Shown here one piece after another: positions 2,148-20,151 of a stretch of 23,081 nucleotides of DNA (position 1 is its first letter; each line of letters opens with the position of its first letter). The notes beneath the pieces were generated by a model. That model ran no database searches and had not been told where the DNA came from. It was given only the letters and a program-made list of their open reading frames with translations. The position numbers and the translations under genes were made by a program. Where the stretch lies: IMG/VR virus record IMGVR_UViG_3300042141_000177, positions 1 through 23,081 of that record. One strand, 5' to 3'. The stretch is from a virus.

Positions 2148-2510
2148 ATGAGAAAAAAAGATGATATTTTATTAGAACAAGCATATTCAAAAATATTGAA
2201 AGAAGAATTCGATGATCATAATCGTGATGATGATAGTAAAGTTTTTCACGTTGATGATACTGTGATATTTAACGATCCAACTGGATTACCTTATTCATAC
2301 GAAGTTAGTTATGAAAAGAAAATGAAGAGCGGTTTTTATGATGATTCAGTATTAAGCGTTGAAATAAATTCGGCTAAAGCATATAAGAAAGATTCCGATG
2401 ATGTTGAATTTCTTTTTGATGTTACTAATGAATCAAATCCAAATTTTTCTGATATTCAGGATTGGGTTTATAATTGGGCAATTGGAGATTCAAAGCTAGA
2501 TACTTTATAA
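2148..2510 (+). CDS. hypothetical protein with N-terminal helix
   Basis: 120 residues. It opens with a charged helix containing LLEQAYSKILKEE, a type of N-terminal segment I associate with small proteins of T4-like and other large phages. The rest is acidic with alternating strands (VFHVDDTVIF, YSYEVSYEKK, SVLSVEIN). No catalytic motif was found. It is the last protein gene before the RNA island; the promoter for the non-coding RNA starts 7 bases after its stop. Confidence 0.65.
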   Translation: MRKKDDILLEQAYSKILKEEFDDHNRDDDSKVFHVDDTVIFNDPTGLPYSYEVSYEKKMKSGFYDDSVLSVEINSAKAYKKDSDDVEFLFDVTNESNPNFSDIQDWVYNWAIGDSKLDTL

Positions 2511-2516
2511 TTTATA

Positions 2517-2544
2517 TTGACATTTTCCAAAATTAATATATAGT
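2517..2544 (+). promoter_or_regulatory. promoter of the RNA island
   Basis: TTGACA at 2517-2522 and TATAGT at 2539-2544 with a 16-base spacer. The expected start is near 2551. No credible gene start follows, so the product should be the structured RNA, probably reading on through tmRNA and tRNA-Tyr. Confidence 0.65.
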
Positions 2545-2550
2545 CTTTAT

Positions 2551-3254
2551 TAGATAGTTGGTTCCCGATGAGCCAACGGGACTGGGAAATCTCGGTCGAA
2601 CCCAAAATCGGAAATTGATATTTGACATTTTAATTTTAGTAGACCCGCCATGCCTCTCACTTGACATGAGTAGTTTCTAAAGTACACGGCAACTAGTAAG
2701 TTGATGCACACTTTGGTGGGTGTTTCTTTTACCAAGCGCAGATGCTAGCAAAGCTCTACCGCGATGGGCAACAATGCAATGTTTCCGGAAACAACATTTA
2801 ACCCATAGGGAACTTCTTCGATTATTATGTATGCGTCCATAAGATACTTGGAGGACTAATGATTAGAATGAGAAGTCTTGGTAATGATTTTAAAAACTGG
2901 AATGTTGGTTTAGAAAACCATCATCTAAGGAGTGGGAGACTGGACGTGGAGAACTGGTAATTCGTATGGACACAATTCATATAAGCCATACACCCTATTT
3001 ATAGGTACGGAGATGACCGTGAATTGCGTTTCACAGGACGAAGAAATTCGTAACCCCTTTAGCTTTAAAAAGCACACCAGTTACAATTTTGATAAGTCGG
3101 ACGGGAATAGTGTGCTGTGCTGTTCTTAAAAAGCTCACCGTTGCAGACTGTCACCAGACTCGATTAGGCAGAGGGTAACAAGCAATCTTCGTCCAACGTG
3201 AGAAAAACGCGGTAGCCAATGAAGAACTTTCTGGTAATGATCTTTGAAAATTAT
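2551..3254 (+). ncRNA. large structured non-coding RNA, family unknown (GOLLD/ROOL-like setting)
   Basis: About 700 bases between a promoter and the tmRNA have no supportable protein gene and clearly higher GC than the neighbours (28 of 60 bases at 2641-2700 against 13 of 60 in the gene at 2161-2220). Many short perfect helices are visible. GTTGG/CCAAC at 2557-2576 has its loop bases TTCCC able to pair with the following GGGA, an H-type pseudoknot. Others are TGGTTT/AAACCA at 2906-2920, GTATGG/CCATAC at 2964-2991, ACGG/CCGT near 3007-3020, GTGAA/TTCAC near 3019-3034, ACGAA/TTCGT closing a GAAA tetraloop near 3038-3051, and AGCACAC/GTGTGCT at 3071-3116. GOLLD and ROOL RNAs are similar in size and often occur in phages beside tRNAs; membership is inference. 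The 3' limit is uncertain. Confidence 0.65.
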
Positions 3255-3667
3255 GGGGGTGAATTAGATTTCGATTTATAGTTGAAACCTAAAAGTGCAT
3301 GTAGAGGATGATAGTTGGCCTCTTTAATAATCTATCAAAAAACTAAATGCAGAAGACAATACTTCTGATCTTTTAGCCGAAGCTGAATACATCTTCAACA
3401 ATGCTGACGAGTTCCTCGCTGGCGTTGAAGACTACGCACTCGCCGCTTGAAGCCTAACGGTAATCCTCTAACCCCGTTTTGAATTGCAGAGGTTTTGACG
3501 ATCTGTTAGAAATCATGTAAAATATATTACGGAGTTTGTTGTAACTTTAAAACAACAAGGTTGGTTAATGTGCCACGATACCTTATAAATCAAATACATT
3601 AAAGCATGTAGTATCTTTTAGAGGATATTATAAAGACAGGAAGGGCAGAACTTCCTCATCTCCACCA
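3255..3667 (+). ncRNA. ssrA: transfer-messenger RNA (tmRNA), one-piece type
   Basis: 413 nt. The 5' end GGGGGTG pairs with CATCTCC before the encoded ACCA at the 3' end. The 5' portion follows the bacterial tmRNA pattern: ATTTCGAT, AAGTGCATG, then GTTGGCCTC. Pseudoknot 1 can be drawn from AGAGG 3303-3307 with CCTCT 3319-3323 and GATAG 3310-3314 with CTATC 3332-3336. CTAAAAG near 3289 pairs with CTTTTAG near 3615, the long helix joining the two ends. The resume codon GCA at 3349 lies at nucleotide 95, close to the E. coli position, and TAAAT precedes it. The role is rescue of stalled ribosomes by trans-translation with SmpB; no smpB is seen here. The T-arm GGAAG/CTTCC closes a loop GGCAGAA that lacks the usual TTC. 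Confidence 0.92.
3349..3450 (+). other. tmRNA tag-peptide reading frame, 33 residues
   Basis: From resume codon GCA to TGA at 3448-3450 the frame is open and encodes a 33-residue tag. It begins AEDNTSDLLAEAEY and ends FLAGVEDYALAA. The terminal YALAA is the classic degron recognised by ClpXP and similar proteases. Most bacterial tags I know are about 8-15 residues, so this is unusually long, and its first part is rich in acidic residues and leucine. Confidence 0.85.
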
Positions 3668-3671
3668 ATTT

Positions 3672-3756
3672 GGGTAGATAGACTCGTAAGGGGCGAGAAT
3701 TGGCTGTAGACCAATTGTTATTTTTAACCCTGTCCGTTCGAATCGGACTCTACCCA
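3672..3756 (+). tRNA. tRNA-Tyr (GUA)
   Basis: The acceptor GGGTAGA pairs with TCTACCC and the discriminator is A3756. The anticodon arm is ATTGG-CTGTAGA-CCAAT with anticodon GTA. A long class II variable arm (TGTTATTTTTAACC) fits bacterial tRNA-Tyr. The T-arm GTCCG-TTCGAAT-CGGAC is perfect. CCA is not encoded. It starts four bases after the tmRNA CCA, so both probably come from one transcript by RNase P processing. A T-rich run follows. The 3' half overlaps the C-terminal codons of the minus-strand endonuclease. Confidence 0.93.
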
Positions 3757-4557
3757 CATTTTTCTTTTTTTATTTTTATCAACAATTTTAAAAATCTCTT
3801 CGTATATATTCTTTGCGTAATTTTTTGAAAACTTACAATTTCCTAAGTTTATTGTTATTAATTCTATTCCTAGTTTTTCACACATTATGGCTTTGTTTTT
3901 ATCTCTATTTTGAATTTTTTCTAATGTTCCTTCACCATAAATTGGAATATAATGAAATATACCATTGAGTTCAAATGCCATCATTAAATCTGGAATATAG
4001 ATATCCAATTCTGATCCTATTGTGTTTTTATCGTTAAAAATAATATCTAAATCTAAAAAATCACTGCGTAAGTTATCTTCCACGTATTTTTCTATTTTAG
4101 AGCGAGATAAACCGCTTTTATTATGAGCATATGCGTGTAATTTCAAAGATAAACTTCTACAACTATGCGAACAAAATTTAGAGTCTGGTGTTTCCGCTTT
4201 ATATTCAATATTACATTTTTGACAAATTTTATGGTATTTTTTAGTTGATTGTTTTTTGCAAAAATCCCCACAATAACGTCTATTATATTTAGAAATAAAA
4301 ATTACACCACATTCCTTACATTCACTATAAACAGTTTTAGATATTTTTATATCTCGTTTAGGTTTGGGACAATTTGAACAACGGTTTTTTTTATTTTTAT
4401 TTTTTTCTGAAACTAAAAATTCTCTATTGCAAATAAAACATAAAACATTTTTTCTTTTAGTTCTAAACACGTTATTAAATTTAGCAGCGCAACTCTGATT
4501 ACAAAATTTTTTTTGCCATTTTCCAGTTAAATCTTCTTTACAATTACAACATTTCAT
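3724..4557 (-). CDS. zinc-finger EDxHD-type (Vsr-like) homing endonuclease
   Basis: 277 residues. The N-terminal half has four paired-cysteine modules of treble-clef type (C3-C6/C19-C23, C40-C43/C60-C63, C80-C83/C96-C100, C112-C115/C129-C133), probably zinc-binding and DNA-contacting. The C-terminal half has the pattern of the EDxHD/Vsr-like nuclease fold: GSELDIYIPDL with E183 and D185, then AFELNGIFHY with E196 and H202, followed by a KIQNRDKNKAIMCEKLGI helix. Relatives such as I-Bth0305I act as free-standing or intron-borne homing endonucleases in phages. It is the only gene on this strand nearby and its last ten or so codons are antisense to the tRNA-Tyr 3' half, with the stop at 3724-3726. 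This suggests it landed against the tRNA gene. Its own DNA target is unknown. Confidence 0.78.
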   Translation of the reverse strand: MKCCNCKEDLTGKWQKKFCNQSCAAKFNNVFRTKRKNVLCFICNREFLVSEKNKNKKNRCSNCPKPKRDIKISKTVYSECKECGVIFISKYNRRYCGDFCKKQSTKKYHKICQKCNIEYKAETPDSKFCSHSCRSLSLKLHAYAHNKSGLSRSKIEKYVEDNLRSDFLDLDIIFNDKNTIGSELDIYIPDLMMAFELNGIFHYIPIYGEGTLEKIQNRDKNKAIMCEKLGIELITINLGNCKFSKNYAKNIYEEIFKIVDKNKKRKMWVESDSNGQG

Positions 4558-10799: not shown

Positions 10800-10839
10800 A
10801 TTAGACTGGTATAATTTGTATTACTGTATAAGTAATTAT

Positions 10840-11598
10840 ATGGTGATTTACAAAACAACAAATATAATCAATAATAAAATATATGTTGGAAAATCTATAA
10901 AAGAAAAAAATTCTTACATAGGATCTGGTATATTATTAAACAGAGCAATTAAAAAATATGGAAAAAATAATTTTATAAAAGAAATTATAGATCGTGCAAA
11001 TACATTGGAAGAATTAAACGAGAAGGAAATATATTGGATAGAAAAATTAAATTCTACTGATCAAAAAATAGGGTACAATATAGCAAAGGGCGGTACTGGT
11101 GGGGATACTCTGAGCAATCATCCAAATGAATTAAAAATACGTAAAAAAATAAGAGAATCTTTAGATAAAATTCAAAAAACATCAGAACATAGAAAAAAAG
11201 CATCTGAAAATTTTAAAAAAATTTGGAAAAGAGAAGGATATAGAGAAAAGATGGCTGGTAAAATGAAAGGGCGAAAAATAACATGGAAAGATAAAATTAG
11301 AAAAAGTGTTAATGCTTATTATGCTGAAAATGGTCCGAGAAAAGTATCAGAAGAAACCAAATTAAAAATAGTTAAAAATAGAAAATCTAAGTTTACTGTA
11401 AAAATACCTGATGATATTCAAAATAAAATTGTTAGTCTATATAAAGATTTTGGTGCATCTAGAATTTCTGAAATTTTACTAAAAGAAAATAATCAGATAG
11501 TATCTAGATTCTTAATAATAAGAGTTTTAAAAGAAAAAGGATTATATAAAAAAAATTGTAAAGGATTAAAATTTTTGAAAAATAATGAAGGCGTTTAA
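10840..11598 (+). CDS. GIY-YIG homing endonuclease
   Basis: 252 residues from the ATG at 10840; a TTG-initiated extension to 10816 is less likely. The GIY-YIG nuclease domain covers about residues 1-90: VIYKTTN and IYVGKS as the two signature strands, SYIGSG, a Lys-rich helix with AIKKYGKNNF, and the catalytic Glu in EKEIYWIEKL. The remainder is very basic with NUMOD3-like helices (SEHRKKASENFKKIW, EETKLKIVKNRKSKF) and a final helix-turn-helix-like segment, both probably for DNA recognition. It overlaps RNA ligase 2 by 14 bases and separates that gene from the nearest promoter, as expected of an invading mobile gene. Confidence 0.85.
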   Translation: MVIYKTTNIINNKIYVGKSIKEKNSYIGSGILLNRAIKKYGKNNFIKEIIDRANTLEELNEKEIYWIEKLNSTDQKIGYNIAKGGTGGDTLSNHPNELKIRKKIRESLDKIQKTSEHRKKASENFKKIWKREGYREKMAGKMKGRKITWKDKIRKSVNAYYAENGPRKVSEETKLKIVKNRKSKFTVKIPDDIQNKIVSLYKDFGASRISEILLKENNQIVSRFLIIRVLKEKGLYKKNCKGLKFLKNNEGV

Positions 11599-14600: not shown

Positions 14601-15491
14601 TTATTTTTTTTTAAATAAAGTTCTCCCTTTCCAAAAACCTTTTGGTATTTCTTCATTTTTTTTAATAAGAGTGTTAATAATTCCATTAGTAATGTGGATT
14701 TTTCCACTATTTACACCCACTAGTTCCTTGTTTTTTAATCTAGGATCATCTTTGGAGACTTGAAAAGTTTTGCCGTTTAAATCTTTTACCGAAACAAATC
14801 CAACGGTTTGTGGTACAATTTCTCCTGTTTGTAATCTTTTATCATCGGTATTTACTCTAAAATGATTTCCATTATTATCTCTCACTTGAATTGTGTTTTT
14901 TGTAACATGTTTCAATTCTCCAGAAAGTAATCTTTTATCGTTTTTATCTACTCTAAATGTATTTCCATTGTCATCTTTTACTGTAACTTTATTTTTAGCG
15001 GTGGAAAATACATTAGATCTATCATCTTTTATTCTTTCATCGCCTTTGTCTACTTTTATTATTTCACCTGATTTTGTTTTTATCATTACTTTATTTCTTG
15101 CTATTCCGAATAATTCACCGCTCTTCAATCTCTCGTCATTCTGAAACACATTAAAAATATTTCCTTTCACATCCCTAGCAGTAACCATCCCATTTCTTCC
15201 ACCCTTTCCTCCTACACAAATATTATAAGTATTTTCATCTTTAACAAAATCTTCAGTCACCAATTCCGCTTCTTTTTGATAACATTCTTCTAAAGTTGAA
15301 AATTGAAAAAGAATTTCTCGTTTAAAGTGCTCTTTTCCGTATTTTTTAATTGCTTTTTTAAGAAGCCTACCTGAGCCTATATAATCATCTAATAAATTTG
15401 TGGTAGAATGAACACCTATATAAATTTTTTTATTTACAAGGTTTGTTGTTTTGTATACAATATGATAAATATTTGTTTGCTGAGCTTTCAT
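14601..15491 (-). CDS. GIY-YIG endonuclease with five internal modular repeats
   Basis: 296 residues. Residues 8-95 form the GIY-YIG nuclease domain: HIVYKTTN, IYIGVHS, DDYIGSG, an AIKKYGKEHF helix and the catalytic Glu in YQKEAELV. Residues 102-264 are five repeats of 32-34 residues with consensus V-x-V-K-D-x-x-G-N-x-F-x-V-x-K-x-D-x-R-L-x-S-G-E-L. A last segment (ITNGIINTLIKKNEEIPKGF then WKGRT) resembles the small DNA-binding module at the end of many phage homing endonucleases. The repeats probably read DNA along its length. It lies against the + strand genes, fitting a mobile gene. An N-terminal Met at 15491 is supported by the domain start. Confidence 0.83.
   Translation of the reverse strand: MKAQQTNIYHIVYKTTNLVNKKIYIGVHSTTNLLDDYIGSGRLLKKAIKKYGKEHFKREILFQFSTLEECYQKEAELVTEDFVKDENTYNICVGGKGGRNGMVTARDVKGNIFNVFQNDERLKSGELFGIARNKVMIKTKSGEIIKVDKGDERIKDDRSNVFSTAKNKVTVKDDNGNTFRVDKNDKRLLSGELKHVTKNTIQVRDNNGNHFRVNTDDKRLQTGEIVPQTVGFVSVKDLNGKTFQVSKDDPRLKNKELVGVNSGKIHITNGIINTLIKKNEEIPKGFWKGRTLFKKK
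14700..15188 (-). repeat. five coding repeats of about 98 bases
   Basis: Encodes residues 102-264 of the GIY-YIG protein as five consecutive related modules. They are diverged at the protein level (for example VTVKDDNGNTFRVDKNDKRL and IQVRDNNGNHFRVNTDDKRL), so they are old duplications rather than a fresh expansion. Confidence 0.75.
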
Positions 15492-19884: not shown

Positions 19885-20151
19885 ATGAAAATTTCGAAGA
19901 ATAGTTTAGGCGGACAGAACAACCATGGACGCATGAGTGGCGCACGTTCGAGTCGTGCTTCTTCGACCATTTTTAAAAAATTACAAAAGTTGGATAGAGA
20001 GATTTCAAGGCTTCAAGAGCGACTAATCTTTACTGGGACTTTTCGTTTCGATTTTGGAAAACATAGAAACAAGAAACTCGAAGAACAAATCAAAAAACTT
20101 GACTTGAAGAGAAAAGAAGTTAGACTAGAGAGAAAGAAATATAAAGTATGA
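19885..20151 (+). CDS. basic coiled-coil protein
   Basis: 88 residues, strongly basic. The first 28 residues are Gly/Ser/Arg-rich and probably disordered (GGQNNHGRMSGARSSRASS). A coiled-coil helix follows (FKKLQKLDREISRLQERL) and a second at the end (KKLEEQIKKLDLKRKEVRLE). A nucleic-acid-binding role is plausible from charge only. It begins directly after the previous stop and overlaps the next gene by ATGA. Its 3' end sequence recurs at 20357-20390. Confidence 0.58.
   Translation: MKISKNSLGGQNNHGRMSGARSSRASSTIFKKLQKLDREISRLQERLIFTGTFRFDFGKHRNKKLEEQIKKLDLKRKEVRLERKKYKV
20117..20150 (+). repeat. junction repeat of the basic gene, copy 1
   Basis: 34 bases covering the last codons of the basic gene and the ATG of the next. 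It matches 20357-20390 at 29 of 34 positions. Confidence 0.75.

Follow-up and report, generated by a model that had tools for sequence, protein, structure and literature searches.

Large structured RNAs such as GOLLD and ROOL are among the closest described counterparts of a non-coding stretch in a phage genome fragment (IMG/VR virus record IMGVR_UViG_3300042141_000177, 23,081 base pairs (bp); the whole fragment is referred to below as the window). The region under study (2551–3254) belongs to an array at 2517–3757 that ends with genes for transfer-messenger RNA (tmRNA) and tRNA-Tyr. Like GOLLD and ROOL (PMC12286853), the array is phage-borne, non-coding, near tRNA islands and about 700 nucleotides (nt) in total; unlike them, it consists of separate modular units, which have no Rfam match. 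The rrn/nut leaders (boxB-boxA-boxC; HK022 put RNA) share with the array a promoter, structured RNA, a boxA-like site and a long untranslated transcript, and in rrn spacers, too, a further boxA-like site precedes the next stable RNA; the array differs in having G at position 9 of its boxA-like motif, and the likeness is one of sequence and position. The tRNA cluster of phage T4, which carries the extra stable RNAs C and D, similarly brings together tRNA-Tyr, a homing-type endonuclease and extra RNAs, whereas the array holds many more RNA families and a tmRNA, the comparison being one of gene content. Phage T6 evades the Septu defence by having a tRNA-Tyr segment amplified through the homing endonuclease SegB (PMC13096335), which suggests a possible route for the shuffling of units in the arrays.

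Two further systems concern RNAs of host defence. The abiF RNA RCd22 of a C. difficile prophage acts in trans, binding AbiF directly and so neutralising it; what matters is the structure of its stem, not the stem sequence (PMC12373285). With the Racr anti-CRISPR RNAs (PMC10651486), phages bear the RNA component of a host defence system without the rest of it; the array would do likewise for the AbiF system.

The region comprises at least six separate small RNAs in a modular array and is not one giant RNA. With a probability of roughly 55%, the whole of 2517–3757 would be a processed non-coding phage operon of new RNA families, with unit A and a boxA-like motif as its leader and unit B as an AbiF mimic.

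A modular array of small RNAs

Related phage contigs were gathered through the RNA ligase gene upstream of the array (755–1765) and an open reading frame (ORF) at 2148–2510, and one pattern scan each for unit A and unit G added further relatives. The array contains the following features.

2517–2544, + strand: sigma-70-type promoter (TTGACA, 16-nt spacer, TATAGT; 11 of 12 consensus matches), start of the putative non-coding operon
2551–2614, + strand: unit A, a 5' pseudoknot RNA (P1 2557–2561/2573–2577; P2 hairpin 2580–2586/2591–2597; pseudoknot helix 2565–2569/2607–2611)
2616–2627, + strand: boxA-like motif TGATATTTGACA, directly 3' of A
2640–2728, + strand: unit B, abiF-like RNA (CCCGCC 2644–2649/2715–2720, bulged A 2650, TGC 2651–2653/GCA 2706–2708, CUCUC loop start, long structured apical domain)
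2729–2884, + strand: unit C, with a variable extension hairpin (closing helix TTACCAAG 2729–2736/CTTGGTAA 2877–2884; P3 ATGGG/CCCAT 2764–2768/2802–2806)
2895–3082, + strand: unit E, a structured RNA of about 185 nt (GAAA-loop hairpin 3038–3051; closing helix not settled)
3091–3152, + strand: unit F (closing GATAAGTC..GACTGTC; inner helix ACGG 3101–3104/CCGT 3138–3141)
3153–3235, + strand: unit G, a three-helix RNA closed by ACCAGA/TCTGGT, mostly just 5' of the tmRNA
3238–3249, + strand: second boxA-like motif TGATCTTTGAAA, about 16 nt 5' of the tmRNA, exact in the window
3255–3667, + strand: tmRNA gene, tag ...AEYIFNNADEFLAGVEDYALAA ending ALAA (Rfam RF00023, 89.5 bits, full length, above cut-off)
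3672–3757, + strand: tRNA-Tyr (GTA), from ARAGORN

A first-pass annotation of the window had described the region as a giant, ornate non-coding RNA with a promoter, raised GC content, many helices and no credible gene over some 700 bases, and most of this description stood. The promoter lies at exactly the positions given there, and the tmRNA and tRNA-Tyr follow as described. The longest ORF within 2551–3254 spans 65 amino acids and is not coding, because homologues carry indels of 1–2 nt across it. GC content is about 0.40–0.43, against 0.23–0.34 in the flanks. The helices were confirmed by comparison across relatives. Folding energy over the entire stretch is unremarkable (z = -0.93; 5 of 20 shuffled sequences did equally well), so the evidence for structure is comparative rather than thermodynamic.

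Comparison with relatives shows where the region divides. BLAST with the region returned complete or broken matches, the breaks recurring at about positions 90, 180, 272, 541 and 612 of the region and coinciding with unit borders. A scan of all contigs with the unit models found 60 stretches in 29 different unit combinations, almost always in the order A, B, C, E, F, G, tmRNA; the six units of the region are gained or lost singly and also found alone. Contig L013 has a complete tRNA-Ala exactly between B and C, and L053 has a tRNA-Thr together with a tRNA-like RNA between C and F. Where unit E would be expected, L013 (2400–2555) carries another structured sequence, with the closing helix GAACTG/CAGTTC, which amounts to the exchange of one unit for another in a fixed place. 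Unit A occurs alone ahead of tRNAs or directly before tmRNA (L092, L107), and a 48%-GC phage (L096) has two copies of it, each followed by other structured stretches. Ten stretches have G and tmRNA without other units, G also occurs without an adjoining tmRNA (L045, L080), and the same is true of an A-B-C-E array (L100).

Individual units have covarying helices of their own, with compensatory changes backing A, C, F and G. Unit A has 98.5% of cells paired, with 47 cells changed on both sides, and unit G has 97.1% paired, with both-sides changes at 11 of 17 pairs (64 cells); none of 500 shuffles was as good for either unit. These two alignments were fitted to structure, so the percentages lean towards it, and the variation is also visible in plain MAFFT alignments. 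Unit G has 46 matches at E ≤ 1.5e-14. In unit C, the seven closing pairs tested are 100% paired in 19 sequences, P3 has 15 cells changed on both sides (0 of 500 shuffles), and the extension (about 2818–2870) is missing in L007, L013 and L100. The inner helix of unit F appears as ACGG/CCGT, ATGG/CCAT, GTGG/CCAC and GCGG/CCGC and is fully paired in 17 of 17 sequences. Unit E is the least settled and is missing in L053, L003 and L044; its hairpin ACGAA-GAAA-TTCGT (about 3038–3051), the GAAA-tetraloop hairpin noted in the first pass, has a compensated version, ATAGA/TCTAT, in relatives.

That the units are domains of one giant ornate RNA, whether diverged from GOLLD and ROOL or new, is highly improbable. 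The size of about 700 nt, the tRNA neighbourhood and the nearly fixed unit order would suit such an RNA, and consensus folding of ten close relatives proposes E–G and F–G helices, including a 9-bp perfect complement, GGACGAAGA/TCTTCGTCC. This E–G complementarity is the one strong cross-unit pairing and is not kept in all genomes: the complement falls to 7 of 9 where E's own hairpin is compensated, G retains TTCGTCC in phages without E, and the helix was set aside. GOLLD, ROOL and OLE gave no cmscan match at E ≤ 10 over 2480–3800, and none in seven relatives. Across the region, Rfam returned only the tmRNA above cut-off; relaxing the threshold to E ≤ 10 added only a weak abiF match inside the region. 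Above all, the units are lost singly, swapped, found alone and split by whole tRNAs. A view of the units as degenerate tRNAs was also rejected, as the folds are not cloverleaves and only a unit of relatives, K, and a few other elements there are tRNA-like. BLAST against named phages matched only a 35-nt piece of the tmRNA, hence no isolate relative was found, and a plasmid search gave no match. What remains of the original proposal is therefore a structured, non-coding, promoter-driven phage locus next to tmRNA and tRNA, not a single RNA of the GOLLD/ROOL type. The suggestion of a diverged member or a new family holds in that the units are absent from Rfam; since they are modular, separately covarying and split by tRNAs, they represent several new families in one operon, not one, and the covarying pairs sought among homologues were found per unit.

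Unit B and the abiF RNA motif

The abiF model (RF03085) matches at 2644–2721 with 25.3 bits, and with up to 29.9 bits in relatives. Unit B is the only abiF-model match in 10 of 12 phage contigs (9 at E 1.9e-5 to 5e-4), and the model found no match in 14 control genomes. B shares with abiF RNA, in the same geometry, the 6-bp stem, the single bulged A, the 3-bp NGC/GCN stem, the CUCUC loop start and the CA internal loop; all conserved features of the motif are present. Its outer stem is 98% paired with two compensated pairs, the inner UGC/GCA can be read directly from the alignment, and alignment with genuine abiF RNAs shows CC.CC-A-.GCCTCT, GC and GG.GG in common. In contrast to abiF RNA, B has an extra apical domain, a score below the gathering cut-off and no accompanying abiF gene. 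A search of 2.9 million viral contigs with the long-loop abiF pattern found 15 stretches, 14 of them in these arrays; the other is a stand-alone B in an unrelated 47%-GC phage (L124). There (L124:1–1290), a further stretch that looks structured and was not recognised comes after B, and a tRNA-Arg lies 0.8 kb downstream.

The genomic setting of B differs from that of bacterial abiF RNAs. Genuine abiF RNAs of Pseudomonadota lie directly 5' of Abi_2 genes in all four cases in which the adjacent downstream ORF was scanned (L125, L130, L131, L132; Pfam E 5e-52 to 3e-57); in L127 and L135 a more distant ORF was scanned and other families were found. Some bacterial copies scoring 33.6 bits, below cut-off, still precede Abi_2 genes. 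No Abi_2 (PF07751) gene was found in the 12 phage contigs, which include fragments of 203 and 134 kb, nor downstream of B. Given that RCd22 neutralises in trans and that the phage copy lacks a toxin gene, B is most simply read as an antitoxin mimic. It could well be an orphan that keeps the host AbiF (Abi_2) toxin off in trans during infection, the odds of which fall a little short of even. RNA-based anti-defence in which a phage has only the RNA part of a host system is known from pseudo-ToxI, and the row of RNAs may partly be counter-defence since B copies the abiF RNA antitoxin motif.

Unit A, the boxA-like motifs and a putative leader

In most of its clusters unit A comes before all other RNA elements, and tRNAs, tmRNA or other units follow it. 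A sigma-70 promoter with at least 11 of 12 matches ends 9–19 nt before the unit A core in about 20 of 33 A copies, against 0.78% of comparable AT-rich background windows; in about 20 of the 33 relatives the -35 and -10 elements are conserved while the spacer varies. A motif with at most one mismatch to TGNTCTTTGANA (TG[AT]TCTTTGA[AC]A) lies within 40 nt after A in 24 of 35 copies, against 0.37% of background windows. The A copies are related, so neither set of percentages represents independent trials. Directly upstream of A, L074 and L094 have a perfect-looking inverted repeat, GTCCTACC..GGTAGGAC, instead of a recognisable promoter.

The H-type pseudoknot candidate of the first pass proved real in form, as P1 and the hairpin between P1 and the pseudoknot helix covary. 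The pseudoknot helix itself (CCGAT/ATCGG) shows full pairing with no variation in 32 distinct sequences and so stays a candidate. We know of no boxB or put RNA that resembles this pseudoknot. A search for the unit A pattern in 84,980 bacterial and archaeal species gave three matches, all in GC-rich coding DNA and judged to be chance.

The boxA-like motif occurs on the array strand and is rare elsewhere in the contigs. Almost every relative retains the second copy ahead of tmRNA, including those in which tmRNA lies far from A (L003, L064, L071). In gammaproteobacteria the boxA consensus is GYTCTTTAANA (PMC5725501), and in Taylorella it is TGTTCTTTAACA (PMC2666751). By direct inspection, rRNA leaders of fetched genomes carry the similar CGTTCTTTAAAAATTT, and 16S leaders carry CGCTCTTTAACAACT and CGTTCTTTAAAAATTTAG. 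A boxA pattern search in Bradyrhizobium yielded no rRNA neighbours among its matches. The promoter before A, the position of A at the head of its cluster and the boxA-like motifs after A and before tmRNA suggest that A and the motif may form an rrn/nut-like antitermination leader, a proposal we regard as evenly poised.

Neighbouring genes, further units and possible roles

Two protein-coding genes flank the array.

755–1765, + strand: RNA ligase gene, upstream of the array (Pfam RNA_ligase 9.2e-17; phrog_968 1.4e-57)
3724–4557, - strand: HNH/homing-type endonuclease ORF, its 3' end overlapping tRNA-Tyr on the opposite strand

Relatives of the endonuclease adjoin RNA/tRNA clusters in L059, L100 and L033. 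ARAGORN misses the tmRNA of the window but detects tmRNA in relatives. Elsewhere in the window, ORFs at 10816–11598 (+) and 14601–15491 (-) start, as judged by eye, like GIY-YIG endonucleases (IVYKTTN..KIYIG). At 19885–19990, within the first part of an 88-amino-acid ORF, ARAGORN predicts a tRNA whose anticodon has four bases (gacg); nearly 60 nt are identical in a distant contig (L062:7953–8058), synonymous positions included. This may be a tRNA-like element over a coding start, or possibly a peptide under strong conservation that is similar to a ribosomal protein motif.

The arrays of relatives contain at least six more unit families that look structured, none of them present in the window.

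Unit H: L044, L095, L106, L109, L105, L062 and L066
Unit I: L019, L081, L100 and L102
Unit K: L053:2263–2391, L102 (tRNA match 2716–2831, - strand), L106:10534–10632, L095 and L105
Unit L: L097, L101, L105 and L106
Unit M: L105 and L106
Unit N: L102

Unit K is tRNA-like, with good acceptor, D and T arms (44–47 bits with the tRNA model), and its anticodon arm is replaced by an element of 25–50 nt with a conserved GGTAAAGGACC. The unrelated phage L096 (4865–4971) has a similar long tRNA-like RNA at 41 bits.

If the array is a processed operon, transcription from the sigma-70 promoter would give a precursor that opens with the pseudoknot RNA A and a boxA-like site, continues through at least five more small RNAs, each a unit in itself (B, C, E, F and G), then crosses the second boxA-like site and closes with tmRNA and tRNA-Tyr. 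The leader may act to keep polymerase going through the long untranslated transcript, the precursor would be cut into separate stable RNAs as in a tRNA or rRNA operon, and B would bind host AbiF. As a best guess, some of C, E, F and G may be further host-directed RNAs, acting in counter-defence or translation. Several points weigh against this reading. Both the operon and its processing are inferred. About 13 A copies lack a strong sigma-70 match, three are preceded by a tRNA at most 500 nt away, and some are not followed by the boxA-like motif (L096, L098, L103), which moreover has G at position 9 where proteobacterial boxA has A. The 25.3–29.9 bits of B lie below the 37-bit Rfam gathering cut-off, and genuine abiF RNAs lack its structured apical insert of about 46 nt. 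The units tested have no host counterpart: A gave chance matches only, and the unit G model had no match in 399 Pseudomonadota genomes, a weak test without a positive control.

A more far-reaching version, in which the operon is an arsenal of RNA decoys, is rather unlikely. B would block AbiF, units C, E, F, G, H, I, K, L, M and N would each imitate an RNA partner or substrate of other RNA-dependent defences and be swapped under host immunity, and all would be expressed through the A and boxA antitermination leader; decoys other than B have no direct support, as A and G lack host counterparts. That same lack of defence-linked counterparts, together with the tight link to tmRNA, tRNAs and the RNA ligase gene, would fit an operon that serves translation or RNA metabolism, like the T4 tRNA cluster, with no part in counter-defence and with B binding some other phage or host RNA-binding protein. 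This is a possible but doubtful account, since the positions that abiF RNA leaves unpaired and facing the protein (bulged A, GCCUCU, GC.CA) are exactly those that B shares, and the quick turnover of units between close relatives may resemble that of arms-race loci. Cis-acting regulation, in which the units would only regulate or process the downstream tmRNA and tRNA, draws on the position of G and the boxA-like motif directly before tmRNA in many phages and is very unlikely, given the array and the G copies that lack an adjoining tmRNA and the solitary B. It is scarcely credible that the units are functionless decayed tRNA genes and mobile debris beside homing endonucleases: tRNAs and tRNA-like elements are indeed interspersed in relatives and an endonuclease ORF abuts tRNA-Tyr, but compensatory change is strong, loops are invariant, and promoter, order and spacing are conserved.

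With the array come five RNA families new to Rfam, all of them covarying or conserved (A, C, E, F and G), and relatives supply at least six further candidates. The array also corrects a likely source of error, the taking of modular phage RNA arrays for single giant RNAs. The processed operon proposed here would offer a candidate phage counterpart of the rRNA-style leader for non-coding operons, and in unit B a testable case of a phage that may carry the RNA antitoxin of an abortive-infection system without its toxin.
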